Shown here in pieces: positions 2,425 through 5,089 of a stretch of 5,089 nucleotides of DNA (its first letter is position 1; each line of letters begins with the position of its first letter). The DNA is from Dehalococcoidales bacterium (GTDB taxonomy: Bacteria > Chloroflexota > Dehalococcoidia > Dehalococcoidales > ARS1013): contig NZEH01000041.1 in the NCBI GenBank assembly GCA_002690375.1, forward strand, positions 1-5,089. The letters are read 5' to 3'. The translations under genes were made by a program, and so were the position numbers. Below the pieces are notes generated by a model. It worked only from the letters and a program-made list of their open reading frames with translations. It was not told where the DNA came from and ran no database searches.

Positions 2425-2925
2425 CTATTCTGCTCCCCCTTCAGTGTCATTGGTTTCAGAATCGATCTTATACAGCTTATCTTCGCTCTCTATATGGTCA
2501 ATATATAAAACACCGTTTAGATGATCCAGTTCATGTTCCAATGCTTGAGCCATAAGGTCAGTGGCTTTAATTCTTATTTTTGCTCCCTCTCGGCTTAACC
2601 CCTTGACGGTGACCGAAGTTGAGCGCTTGATCAGTCCCTGGTAGCCTGGAGCGCTGAGGCAGCCTTCAACAACCTCCCTCTCTCCGGAGCGTTTTACAAT
2701 CTCCGGGTTGATTATAACTAATGGTTCTTCTTCGGGCATCTTAAGTACCACGATCCGAAGGGGTACTCCAATCTGTGGCGCGGCTAAGCCCACTCCATTT
2801 GTATGCTGCATTGTTGCTATCATGTCATCAATAAACTGGTGAATTGATTTATCAATGATTGATACTCTTTTGGCTTTTCCTCTCAGCACTGTATCCGGGA
2901 GATGCCGTACTTCTCGGACCGTCAT
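2425..2925 (-). CDS. def: Peptide deformylase
   Basis: The enzyme removes the formyl group from the N-terminal formyl-methionine of nascent proteins at the ribosome, using a bound metal (Fe2+ or Zn2+). All three signature motifs are present, numbered from ATG 2925: GVGLAAPQIG at 44-53, EGCLS at 87-91 with metal ligand C89, and HELDH at 131-135 with metal ligands H131 and H135 and catalytic E132. The 166-residue length is normal. The frame is open upstream to an ATG at 2982, which would add 19 residues unlike the family's N-terminus. ATG 2925 begins MTVREVRHLPD, the expected family start, and has AAAGGAG 11 bases upstream, so I chose it. The acidic tail after about residue 147 is poorly conserved. 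The HAD phosphatase gene follows with three bases between stop and start, making a two-gene unit that diverges from tRNA-Pro. Confidence 0.95.
   Translation of the reverse strand: MTVREVRHLPDTVLRGKAKRVSIIDKSIHQFIDDMIATMQHTNGVGLAAPQIGVPLRIVVLKMPEEEPLVIINPEIVKRSGEREVVEGCLSAPGYQGLIKRSTSVTVKGLSREGAKIRIKATDLMAQALEHELDHLNGVLYIDHIESEDKLYKIDSETNDTEGGAE
2432..2440 (-). promoter_or_regulatory. Ribosome binding site of the HAD phosphatase gene, inside the def coding end
   Basis: On the minus strand AAGGGGGAG lies 10 bases before the ATG at 2421, within the last codons of the deformylase gene. This supports that start and translational coupling of the two genes. Confidence 0.5.
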
Positions 2926-2936
2926 AATAGCGGTGG

Positions 2937-2943
2937 CTCCTTT
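2937..2943 (-). promoter_or_regulatory. def: Ribosome binding site that decides the def start
   Basis: AAAGGAG on the minus strand ends 11 bases before ATG 2925. The spacing is a little long but acceptable. It favours this ATG over the in-frame ATG at 2982. Confidence 0.5.
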
Positions 2944-2972
2944 GTCATACCAGATCGGTAACCCAAAGCACC

Positions 2973-2981
2973 ATATTAGCA
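2973..2981 (-). promoter_or_regulatory. Candidate extended -10 element for def
   Basis: The minus strand reads TGCTAATAT here, an extended -10 form (TGn plus a hexamer with four of six matches to TATAAT). I see no good -35 at normal spacing. If it is used, transcription would begin near 2966, inside the longer def frame, which again favours the downstream ATG 2925. Confidence 0.25.
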
Positions 2982-3031
2982 TATTAAAAAAGATGCGTCT
3001 ATGAATGACAGTATTGGTACAAGCCTTGAGC

Positions 3032-3060
3032 TTGCTAGTGCTGGTGAGCTATGCTAGTAT
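3032..3060 (+). promoter_or_regulatory. Promoter of tRNA-Pro
   Basis: TTGCTA at 3032-3037 and TAGTAT at 3055-3060 are 17 bases apart, and TG at 3052-3053 makes an extended -10. Expected transcription start is near 3067, about 12 bases before the mature tRNA 5' end, a typical short leader. GCTAGT occurs as a direct repeat at 3034 and 3053, across the two promoter elements. Confidence 0.55.
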
Positions 3061-3078
3061 AACTAAGAAATTTAAATT

Positions 3079-3155
3079 CGGGGTGTAGCGCAGCCCGGTA
3101 GCGCACCTGAATGGGGTTCAGGTGGTCGGCGGTTCAAATCCGCCCACCCCGACCA
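3079..3155 (+). tRNA. tRNA-Pro, anticodon GGG, CCA encoded
   Basis: A full cloverleaf can be folded by eye. The acceptor stem CGGGGTG (3079-3085) pairs fully with CACCCCG (3145-3151). The D stem is GCGC/GCGC (3088-3091, 3101-3104). The anticodon stem CCTGA/TCAGG (3106-3110, 3118-3122) encloses loop ATGGGGT with anticodon GGG at 3113-3115. The variable loop is five bases. The T stem GGCGG/CCGCC (3128-3132, 3140-3144) encloses TTCAAAT. Discriminator A3152 and encoded CCA at 3153-3155 complete it. The C1-G72 pair with A73 and G35-G36 is characteristic of bacterial tRNA-Pro. It reads CCC and CCU codons. Its 3' half is repeated in decayed form at 4345-4377, and an integrase relic begins right after it, marking it as a probable integration site. 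Confidence 0.97.
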
Positions 3156-3442
3156 TTAATCCTAATTCAAAGCTATCCTGTTATGTCAAGTTATTCCCCG
3201 CTTTACATCAATCCTCCAGTCACTTGTTAACAACAAATAAAGAGTCTTTGTTAACAGACTTCCTGAATAGTAGAAGACAAAGTTTATCCCTAAAAACAAT
3301 AGAACTCCACAGGTATACTCTACAAGCGTTTCTCCAATACTGCAATGAAAGAATAACACCTGAATTAATCAATTCCTTCATTACTAGACTCAATTACGAA
3401 TGGCTGTCCGTAAATAATCGTGTTGTTATTAGCAGGTTTTAA
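3122..3442 (+). pseudogene. Tyrosine recombinase (phage-type integrase) relic, N-terminal part only
   Basis: The open frame of 106 codons begins with a GTG inside the tRNA T-arm region. Residues about 43-91 (3248-3394) look like the SAM-like core-binding domain of tyrosine recombinases: DFLNSRRQSLSLKTIELHRY, then LQAFLQYC and ITPELINSFITRL, matching the pattern 'FL..R...SLS.KTI..Y...L..F..YC'. The frame then runs about 15 unrelated residues to a stop. The catalytic domain (R, H-x-x-R, Y) is absent here and in neighbouring frames, so the gene has lost its 3' two-thirds. The true original start is unclear: no ATG is in frame, TTG codons lie at 3224 and 3248, and there is no good ribosome binding site. 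Residues 1-35 probably reflect tRNA and att sequence rather than protein. Position next to a tRNA, reading away from it, is typical of integrative elements. Confidence 0.65.
3123..3155 (+). repeat. attL-like copy: 3' end of tRNA-Pro, left direct repeat
   Basis: This 33-base segment, from the variable loop through CCA, is matched at 27 of 33 positions by 4345-4377 in the same orientation. The core CGGTTCAAATCC (3130-3141) and the final GACCA are identical. Weaker similarity continues beyond the tRNA: AATTCA at 3164 matches 4380, and 3181-3203 matches 4392-4414 at 17 of 23 positions. The T-arm and CCA end of tRNA genes are classical integrase attachment sites. Confidence 0.6.
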
Positions 3443-3471
3443 CCAAACACTACCAAATGAATCACAATGAC

Positions 3472-3500
3472 TTGACAAGTTTACGCATCAGTATTAGTAT
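3472..3500 (+). promoter_or_regulatory. Promoter of the cupredoxin gene
   Basis: A perfect TTGACA at 3472-3477 and TAGTAT at 3495-3500 (four of six) are separated by 17 bases. TATAAA at 3498-3503 overlaps but would need a 20-base spacer. Transcription would begin near 3507, leaving about 85 bases of leader with the mini-ORF. The promoter lies after the integrase relic, so the cargo gene is probably transcribed on its own. Confidence 0.5.
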
Positions 3501-3550
3501 AAATCACTTGATAATGAGAATATTGATTCAGCTAAAGGACTGGTTGGCGG

Positions 3551-3592
3551 ATGAGTAACCGAAGAAGAAGAAGAAAAGGAGAAGGGAAATAG
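3551..3592 (+). CDS. Possible 13-residue Arg-rich leader peptide
   Basis: ATG at 3551 opens a 13-codon frame, MSNRRRRRKGEGK, ending in TAG at 3590-3592. The stop shares its last base with the GTG start of the next gene (TAGTG). AAAGGA lies 11 bases before the ATG. The frame runs through a 29-base all-purine tract (3561-3589) that also holds the downstream gene's ribosome binding site, so the run of arginines may only reflect AGA repeats. Possible roles are a coupling leader, or the basic N-terminus of an ancestral longer membrane protein now in the -1 frame. It has no recognised homologue that I know of. Confidence 0.25.
   Translation: MSNRRRRRKGEGK
3574..3581 (+). promoter_or_regulatory. 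Ribosome binding site supporting the GTG start of the cupredoxin gene
   Basis: AAAAGGAG ends 10 bases before the GTG at 3592, within a long purine tract. No ATG near the N-terminus is in frame, and the membrane segment begins only a few residues after the GTG, so this start is the best one. Confidence 0.55.
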
Positions 3593-4332
3593 TGGCTCTG
3601 AGAAAAGAGTTCTGGGTAATTGGGATACTGTCCATAATGGTAGTAGGATTTATACTTATAATACTAGTTGCTACAATTGCTACCCGCGAACTTAGAACAC
3701 CACCTCCAGCGATAACCGGTTTAATCGCAACCGATACCTCTTATGACCGTCACGGACAGATAGACATATCCTGGGCCCCGAGTGATGCCACGGACTTCCT
3801 CTATTACTATATTTATGCTTCTGAGGAAGAGATAACATCTGTTGCTGATCTCTCCCCCATTGCCAAAATCGACGACATAACGGATGTTAGCTACCAGGCA
3901 ACCAAATATAGAGTACCCGGGGTTAGATTGGCTTTGTTTGCTTTCATGAACGACATCGAATATTGGTTTACCGTAACTGCTGTAGATATGGATGGTAAGG
4001 AAAGTATTGTGGCAGACAGCGTAAGTGCCACCATTGAAATGATGCCACCACCACCGACTATCTTCATACAAAAGATTTACGGGGGCAACGAAGTCCCAGG
4101 CTACCAATCAGATCCTGTAACTGTCCCCATAGGGACCACAGTTGCTTGGAGTGACCTAGACGTAACAAGTCAGATTCAGTACCCGCATACTATTACCAGT
4201 GATACTGGACTTTTCCATGAAGACTTATGGGGTTATCGGGACGTATTTATCTATACTTTTACCGAGGCTGGCGTTTTTACCTATCACTGCGAGCGCCACG
4301 ACGGGGAGGAAGCAACGGTTATTGTAGAGTAA
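3592..4332 (+). CDS. Membrane-anchored fibronectin type III-cupredoxin protein with Glu at the axial copper position
   Basis: The 246-residue product has three parts. Residues about 8-28 form one hydrophobic helix after a short basic start, with no lipobox cysteine, so it is probably an N-terminal anchor with the rest outside the membrane. Residues about 37-150 resemble a fibronectin type III domain (IDISWAPS, YYYIYAS, YWFTVTAVDMDGKES). A Pro-rich linker (MMPPPPT) leads to a cupredoxin domain at about 157-246. The end FTEAGVFTYHCERH is close to amicyanin and plastocyanin. Copper ligand candidates are H199 (PHT), C233 and H236. Aligned by its C-terminal strand, the ligand loop has amicyanin length, but the residue three after H236, normally Met, is E239. 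Such domains carry electrons or bind copper at the cell surface; the partner is unknown. The gene is the only intact one in the tRNA-bounded islet and has its own promoter. The GTG start has a good ribosome binding site. Confidence 0.8.
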   Translation: MALRKEFWVIGILSIMVVGFILIILVATIATRELRTPPPAITGLIATDTSYDRHGQIDISWAPSDATDFLYYYIYASEEEITSVADLSPIAKIDDITDVSYQATKYRVPGVRLALFAFMNDIEYWFTVTAVDMDGKESIVADSVSATIEMMPPPPTIFIQKIYGGNEVPGYQSDPVTVPIGTTVAWSDLDVTSQIQYPHTITSDTGLFHEDLWGYRDVFIYTFTEAGVFTYHCERHDGEEATVIVE

Positions 4333-4344
4333 GCATCTGCAGTT

Positions 4345-4377
4345 TGGTCAACGGTTCAAATCCACCCATTCAGACCA
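4345..4377 (+). repeat. attR-like decayed copy of the tRNA-Pro 3' end
   Basis: This segment matches 3123-3155 at 27 of 33 positions and keeps CGGTTCAAATCC and GACCA exactly. Five of the six differences are G-to-A or C-to-T transitions (GG to AA, G to A, CC to TT); the sixth is C to A. They break three of the five T-stem pairs, so it cannot be a functional tRNA part. There is no acceptor 5' strand, D arm or anticodon arm in front, although GCATCTG at 4332-4338 faintly recalls the tRNA's GCACCTG. It starts 12 bases after the cupredoxin stop codon. Confidence 0.6.
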
Positions 4378-4417
4378 CGAATTCACGCTTTTTATGTCAA
4401 CTTCTCTCCTACTTAGT

Positions 4418-5089
4418 CTACTCATCAAGAACCTGTCTTAACTCCTTTATGAAACTACTGACCGTCGATACGAAATTATCCTCATCCTCCATAAGCTGAA
4501 TTAGCCGACTGCCGACAATAACCCCGTCAGCTGTCTGGGCCACCCGTCTTGCTTGATCTATGGTAGATACGCCGAAGCCAACACAAAGAGACTGGTGGGC
4601 TACCATTCTCACCCTAGTCAAGAAGGCCTCCAAGTCAGCAGGCAGCTCTTGCCTAGCTCCGGTAACCCCGGTTACCGAGACAAGATAGATAAATCCCCGC
4701 GATCTCTCAGCCACCAGCCTGATGCGTTCTTGAGTACTAGTCGGCGCCAACAGATAAATCAGGTCAAGATTCTGCTTTTGGATGATGGTCTCCATCTCTA
4801 AACCCTCCTCAGGAGGTAGATCAGGAATGATTAAGCCACTTATACCTGAACTAGCGCAGGCCTTTAAGAATTTATCCTGACCATAACTCAAGATCGGATT
4901 AAAGTAAGTCATAAACACCAGTGGTATGCTAACCTTCTGGCTCAACTGCTCGGCTACCTCAAGACAAAGCTGGGGAGTAACCCCATTCTCAATGGCAGAA
5001 AAGCTTGCCTTTTGTATAGTGGCACCATCAGCCAAGGGATCAGAGAAGGGTATCCCCAGCTCCACTATATCGCAGCCACTCGAGGCAAG
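4418..5089 (-). CDS. trpA: Tryptophan synthase alpha chain (partial, N-terminus outside window)
   Basis: TrpA cleaves indole-3-glycerol phosphate to indole and glyceraldehyde 3-phosphate; indole passes through a tunnel to TrpB. The visible 223 residues start at LASSGCDIVELGIPFSDP. The catalytic Glu is in VELGIPFSDP and the catalytic Asp in PLADG (equivalent to E49 and D60 of the Salmonella enzyme). Other TrpA landmarks follow: PLVFMTYFNPI, GLIIPDLPPEE, LLAPTSTQERI, FIYLVSVTGVTGAR (the flexible phosphate-side loop) and VGFGVST...DGVIVGSRL. About 45-50 N-terminal residues are missing beyond the right edge; the GTG at 5065 is an internal Val and not the start. The C-terminus ends normally. trpB and other trp genes would be expected further right, but none can be seen. 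The stop lies 40 bases from the decayed tRNA copy, so the islet ended just behind trpA. Confidence 0.96.
   Translation of the reverse strand, partial: LASSGCDIVELGIPFSDPLADGATIQKASFSAIENGVTPQLCLEVAEQLSQKVSIPLVFMTYFNPILSYGQDKFLKACASSGISGLIIPDLPPEEGLEMETIIQKQNLDLIYLLAPTSTQERIRLVAERSRGFIYLVSVTGVTGARQELPADLEAFLTRVRMVAHQSLCVGFGVSTIDQARRVAQTADGVIVGSRLIQLMEDEDNFVSTVSSFIKELRQVLDE

Follow-up and report, generated by a model that had tools for sequence, protein, structure and literature searches.

Gene content of the tRNA-Pro(GGG) locus

The stretch of DNA analysed here, called the window in the following, comprises 5089 bases and corresponds to positions 2190–7278 of contig C32, minus strand, in an assembly (G000) of 0.94 Mb on 114 contigs that is 93% complete with 7.35% contamination. 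Its left part encodes a RimK-like ATP-grasp protein, an Ala_racemase_N family protein, a HAD phosphatase and a peptide deformylase (2425–2982, minus strand), the last of which has an orthologue in the equivalent place in G001, a genome of the same genus. Behind it lies a complete tRNA-Pro(GGG) gene on the plus strand (3079–3155), recognised by ARAGORN and by the Rfam tRNA model with 63.8 bits. The chromosomal neighbour on the right is trpA (4418–5089, minus strand), which is taken to extend past the window edge, since its part inside the window lacks the first 40 profile positions. Between tRNA and trpA we find an integrase relic, a single open gene and a copy of the tRNA 3′ end, all on the plus strand, and the distance from the end of the tRNA to the end of this copy is 1222 bp.

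The integrase relic is an open frame from 3188 to about 3439–3442, of which the segment 3188–3394 represents an N-terminal stub with a SAM-like core-binding domain. The stub matches PF02899 weakly (E 0.0063, below the curated cut-off) and is 50–53% identical (E 4e-16) to a stub behind tRNA-Pro(GGG) in G023, whose own score passes the PF13495 cut-off. While the initial annotation had read the frame as an integrase relic up to 3442, the homology supports this for the N-terminal part and ends at about 3394. No catalytic domain was detected in the stub, nor does the 1.5 kb that follows it show homology to an integrase C-terminus, so that the complete catalytic integrase characteristic of a functional mobile element is absent from the window. 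Among proteins of similar length in the protein database, no relatives of the 84-aa stub were found. Around the start of the stub, the direct repeat TTGTTAAC occurs twice (3224–3231 and 3248–3255, plus strand), 23–24 bases apart, and the same pair is seen in G023 and in G118, all of them at tRNA-Pro; the homologous integrase start in G118 ends at a contig edge. GTTCACAA-type direct repeats are present between tRNA and integrase at several other tRNAs; both kinds of repeat are read as candidate arm-type sites to which the integrase may bind.

The stub is followed by a 64-bp stretch (3392–3455, plus strand) that recurs with 89% identity on contig C87 of the same assembly, and by a TTGACA hexamer (3472–3477, plus strand), a possible promoter box common to 7 of the 8 aligned upstream regions of the cupredoxin paralogues described below. 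The cargo gene itself (3592–4332, plus strand) begins with GTG, is preceded by a ribosome site and encodes 246 aa in an open frame with a cupredoxin-like C-terminal domain.

Twelve bases past its stop codon begins the copy of the tRNA T-arm (4345–4377), which lies on the same strand as tRNA-Pro and agrees with it in 27 of 33 bases (~82%). The next best match elsewhere in the window reaches 18/33, the reverse strand gives at most 20, and no match above 22/33 arose when the 1934 bases downstream of the tRNA were shuffled 500 times (mononucleotide shuffles). Read from the sequence, the differences comprise five C-to-T or G-to-A changes and a single C-to-A change, and three of the five pairs of the T-stem are broken. 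The initial annotation had reported the complete tRNA-Pro, the integrase relic, the open gene and the directly oriented 27/33 T-arm copy with mostly C-to-T or G-to-A changes in an interval of about 1.2 kb, all of which was confirmed by ARAGORN, Rfam, homology searches, shuffles and measurement. Its placing of the copy start at the anticodon loop has to be revised, as position 45 of the tRNA is the first that the copy covers. Elsewhere in the order, tRNA-Pro halves begin at about position 28–33 (the G023 half at 31), several of them preceded by a common G+C-rich stretch and then T. Because of this difference in starting point, the right end of the element and part of attR were probably lost by erosion; assuming a core in the anticodon loop, the two att sites of the window share no matching crossover core.

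Empty sites and history of the insertion

Empty sites with trpA directly behind tRNA-Pro(GGG), as predicted by the initial annotation, were found in G001, on contig C77 of the same assembly and in G020, which belongs to another family. Here as in the window trpA was assigned by TIGR00262, and no second T-arm copy was found between tRNA-Pro(GGG) and trpA in G001, C77 or G020. In G001, window positions 3060–3155 and 4345–4500 map to one unbroken stretch, overlapping in the T-arm, with 1658 of 1963 aligned bases identical in the left flank and 616 of 712 in the right. Contig C77 carries a diverged allele (right flank 568/712) and is tentatively assigned to a second organism in the assembly. G002, the second of the two other genomes of the genus compared, contains no tRNA-Pro(GGG) half at up to 3 mismatches and is hence uninformative on the site. 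The bases after the right copy (4378–4417, plus strand) are the native tRNA-Pro/trpA spacer of the empty sites, while those after the complete left tRNA (3156–3223, plus strand), which form the left end of the element leading into the stub, are not native by comparison with G001 and C77. This flank pattern is the signature of integrase-mediated insertion with tRNA restoration, in which the complete tRNA represents attL and the decayed, displaced 3′ end without its anticodon half represents attR. The locus thus combines what characterises a tRNA-integrated element or its remnant, namely a restored tRNA with a fragment in direct orientation, empty sites and an integrase gene at one end, the latter represented in the window by the N-terminal stub only. 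Neither of the outcomes named beforehand as speaking against an insertion, a conserved gene order without empty sites or the remnant of a tandem duplication, was seen in the material examined.

The locus is an insertion at tRNA-Pro that has decayed to a single open gene, of a kind that is already known, and very probably an eroded tyrosine-integrase element of tRNA-Pro(GGG), with an insertion documented by empty sites and deletions deduced from its anatomy. On this reading, a tyrosine-integrase element recombined into the tRNA-Pro(GGG) gene between peptide deformylase and trpA, its own tRNA 3′ part restoring the gene and pushing the chromosomal 3′ part to the far end, as the empty sites show. 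Deletions before or after integration would have removed the catalytic half of the integrase, and a further loss at the right junction would have taken the right end of the element together with the anticodon half of attR. The anatomy points to an immobile 1.2-kb relic with a single cupredoxin-like gene as the result. An eroded, immobile relic is the most likely state of the window element because its integrase lacks the catalytic half and its right copy the anticodon half; with its right end and part of attR apparently missing and integrase C-terminal homology lacking, excision of the window copy without help is not to be expected. The integrase may have been lost after integration or already before it; in the latter case the element would have been a non-autonomous mini-element mobilised in trans. 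Called minimal in the initial annotation, the element indeed measures 1.2 kb today, but with its seemingly eroded right end it was once possibly larger.

The cupredoxin-like gene and its paralogues

The profile of the cargo family matches copper proteins of the PDB including amicyanin and plastocyanin (E down to 1e-11), and the paralogue on C87 matches PF13473 (4e-8), whereas the window protein itself scores weakly (PF00127, E 0.15). As in amicyanin and plastocyanin-like cupredoxins, one His is conserved in 9/9 aligned copies and a Cys in 7/9. The family differs from amicyanin in the axial Met position, which is Glu in the seven Cys-bearing copies, the other two copies being without Cys. It further differs from both types of protein in having an N-terminal hydrophobic stretch and an FN3-like middle part, both assigned by eye and without Pfam support, ahead of the C-terminal domain. 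Of the 156 genomes of the order, G000 was the only one in which full or nearly full-length members were found, at six loci on four contigs, and 30 other genomes match part of the profile at E 1e-8. The protein database holds 31 relatives, the best being 92% identical, and a scan of named genomes gave 57 loci with best segments of 28–47% identity, mostly in the cupredoxin part. Between the window gene and its nearest paralogue dN/dS (NG86) is 0.77, and among the six copies it ranges from 0.52 to 0.95, which means weak constraint or fast divergence with frames kept open. The proposal that the gene was kept after mobility was lost therefore has weak support, with the open frame, the TTGACA box and the ribosome site in its favour and the dN/dS value and the multicopy nature of the family against it.

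A somewhat doubtful but serious alternative is that the gene was never cargo of the element and reached an older integrase scar by duplication from an array at another place in the genome. The six full or nearly full-length copies, some of them in tandem, are in line with this, as are the copies on contigs C44, C56 and C82 and on the examined parts of C3 and C47, where no tRNA gene is present, although several of these contigs end inside a copy; the stretch at 3392–3455, which precedes the window gene, moreover sits behind the cupredoxin gene on C87. Against this alternative, contig C87 repeats the order of integrase stub and cupredoxin gene at a tRNA-Glu, suggesting linkage to such elements. 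Owing to the tandem copies and those on tRNA-less stretches, the family does not seem to have spread by tRNA elements alone, and the window gene may have arrived separately from the integrase. This also counts against the reading as an eroded tRNA-Pro element: the cargo family is found away from tRNA genes too, so that a common arrival of cargo and integrase is not a given.

On C87 (L010 2560–3645) the integrase stub flanks tRNA-Glu(CTC) on its 5′ side, with the cupredoxin paralogue next in order, and is 63–64% identical over 78 residues, translated tRNA included, to tRNA-Glu integrases in G042 and G007. In G001 this left flank is followed by a tRNA-Glu with a tRNA-Gln 12 bases beyond, which judging from the shared flank is a second empty site, this one for the C87 insertion. 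The spacing of tRNA-Glu and tRNA-Gln in G002 is 10 bases, but the flank lies on a different contig.

The C87 counterpart of the window stretch 3392–3455 (89% of 64) spans L010 3899–3961 behind the cupredoxin gene, and L388 29–107 matches L010 3831–3910 (93%), overlapping the stretch that matches the window by about 12 bases. A third tRNA-linked cupredoxin insertion, at tRNA-Arg on C53, was first proposed from fragments at L014 ~5409–5449 and 6160–6186; it was dropped because contig C7 of G002 has a nearly identical flank directly after its tRNA-Arg, which makes the G000 flank look native. The fragment at L014 6160–6186 consists of 26 bases resembling a tRNA-Arg anticodon arm between two C53 cupredoxin genes, and 19 bases of this second fragment were recovered in the tRNA-copy scan.

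Integrase relatives and tRNA elements in the order

Of the 156 genomes of the order, 21 contain a match to the window stub and 59 a match to the G023 stub, counting in each case the stub's own genome. We examined 63 loci, mostly picked from stub matches with a preference for short frames. Either stub is matched in 56 of them, and in 40 of these 56 the match starts less than 200 bases from a tRNA gene (Lys, Pro, Ala, Arg, Leu, Glu, Gly, Met or SeC). At the other 16, mostly no tRNA was found in the stretch examined, and C87, one of these 16, counts through its match to the 3392–3455 stretch only. We see the relic as a member of a tRNA-targeting group that is frequent in the order and whose integrases lie immediately behind or before many different tRNA genes. 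The longer member in G038, the sole one given to Pfam, matches PF00589. When 13 longer members were aligned, the residues that we take to be the catalytic positions (R, K, H, W and Y) proved to be present in 13/13, while in G038 the HxxR motif lacks its FRR stretch. IMG/VR contains 174 places encoding relatives, among the best 80 of which the top match by E-value is 27% identical and none exceeds 48% identity (over 45 residues).

Displaced tRNA halves of at least 37 bases cover the 3′ side from position 23–32 at L068, L220, L223, L225, L230 and L238 (weakly at L228) and the 5′ side up to position 37–45 at L123, L229, L236, L249 and L250, and their extents point to a crossover near the anticodon loop in this integrase group. 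As a rule this is weakened by L119 and L241, two loci with integrases of the same group where tRNA copies of only 23–24 bases begin at positions 52–55. In view of these, the short right copy of the window might instead reflect a different crossover place, which slightly lowers our confidence in the eroded element as the best explanation.

C-terminally truncated stubs, defined as those with at least 800 bases left and less than 25% of the C-terminal part, number 16 after setting aside rows at contig ends and five short rows, mostly translated tRNA halves; with N-terminal queries and many short frames chosen, this is a biased frequency. Three of the 16 (L121, L223, L229) retain 16–19% of the C-terminal part. 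Given the bias toward N-terminal matches and short frames, we do not conclude that truncation is a special, selected form.

The 3′ half of tRNA-Pro(GGG) was found with up to 3 mismatches in 86 of the 156 genomes and in at least two copies in 18 of these; in G000 the second half counted is that on C77, and the displaced window copy exceeds 3 mismatches. Other elements at the same tRNA, which had been expected from the initial annotation, are present in G023 (1478 bp, halves 43/45, a stub of ~97 codons and one 207-aa frame without Pfam match), in G080 (3505 bp, copy 41/44), in G031 (L071 3992–7859; 3791 bp encoding a DNA methylase and a DndB-like protein, with no match to the window stub) and in G061 (16,593 bp, copy 44/44, one frame of 331 aa being integrase-like by eye). 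A further one in G081 measures 1144 bp (copy 36/44) and holds one 188-aa frame, with no integrase recognised by eye. Sizes of 1.1–3.8 kb recur in the order, which is a caveat to the interval of 1222 bp having been regarded as unusually short at first. Inside the G023 element, L068 3391–3458 contains a piece like the 3′ half of another tRNA, Thr-CGT-like by eye.

In the G023 element as well as in those of G085 (2057 bp, halves 43/45, one 441-aa frame) and G037 (3244 bp, halves 42/42, one 772-aa frame), a single frame of more than 100 aa is found besides a C-terminally truncated integrase, the stub frame of G037 itself having 116 codons. These three, with their nearly undecayed tRNA halves, and the retention of both candidate arm repeats in the window raise the idea that the window element was integrated as a 1.2–1.5 kb unit of att and arm sites with one cargo gene, a non-autonomous mini-element moved in trans. 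We consider this improbable, at about one chance in a few, as the three elements may also have been truncated shortly after insertion, the sample of integrase loci is enriched for short frames and the eroded right end makes losses after integration likely in the window too. Moreover, the G023-type N-terminal domain occurs in G000 only as the stubs on C32 and C87, so that no such helper is seen in this 93% complete assembly. Equally tentative is the wider proposal that the order harbours non-autonomous single-gene tRNA elements of ~1–3 kb, consisting of att and arm sites with a truncated integrase start and moved in trans, two of which would have spread G000 cupredoxins at tRNA-Pro and tRNA-Glu. 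Direct orientation and ~82% identity would allow a tandem duplication of the tRNA in which one copy decayed later, but the flank comparison rejects this as extremely unlikely: it is the decayed copy that is followed by the native tRNA-trpA spacer, whereas the integrase stub with other element DNA comes after the complete tRNA. Moreover, the copy comprises the 3′ part only, and no locus scanned for tRNAs holds two complete tRNA-Pro(GGG) genes.

In G085 (L220 9148–11519), two integrase stubs lie in tandem at tRNA-Lys, and the displaced half belonging to the first is located directly before the second.

Comparison with known elements

The eroded tRNA-Pro element resembles the tRNA and tmRNA islands collected by Islander, for which PMC4383910 describes a tyrosine integrase beside a restored tRNA, a displaced fragment at the far end and anticodon-centred sites among the site types. 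It differs from them in its length of 1.2 kb and in its integrase stub; according to the same source, island sizes peak at 13.6 and 39.9 kb, candidates below 2 kb are rejected and an integrase gene is tested for. The ssrA islands of Dehalococcoides, as described in PMC3146451, likewise are site-specific, carry variable cargo and leave direct repeats of the RNA gene, but use the serine recombinase DsiB at tmRNA in place of a tyrosine recombinase, of which the window retains a stub at a tRNA. Archaeal pTN3-like and SSV-type integrases share the tRNA targets and the anticodon loop, according to PMC8371274. There, pTN3-like integrases use the 5′ half of the tRNA, as several relatives in the order seem to do, and SSV integrases are split by integration, whereas the window integrase starts at attL and is without its C-terminal half. 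Among titles and abstract openings of open-licence papers, we found no match for one-gene or truncated-integrase tRNA elements.

By direct comparison, the locus shows a tRNA-targeting element shrinking to a one-gene scar. Elements in the size class of 1–3 kb with a truncated integrase and one cargo gene are partly excluded by the Islander filters (PMC4383910). If the order indeed harbours non-autonomous mini-elements, the size and integrase filters of such island finders would miss most of them, and if some move in trans, they would offer a simple route for single genes into the tRNA sites of small genomes.

In G033, a displaced tRNA-Pro copy on C9 and the complete tRNA on C29 continue with the same 48 bases from within the acceptor end, and in G002 the tRNA-Arg half of C52 shares 199 of 200 bases with the complete gene on C7. 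Both pairs look like an empty and an occupied site within one assembly, as polymorphic or recently moving elements would give, though an assembly artefact is conceivable. On C52 of G002 (L392 240–330), the displaced tRNA-Arg half lies behind an inverted GTTCACAA-type repeat recognised by eye.
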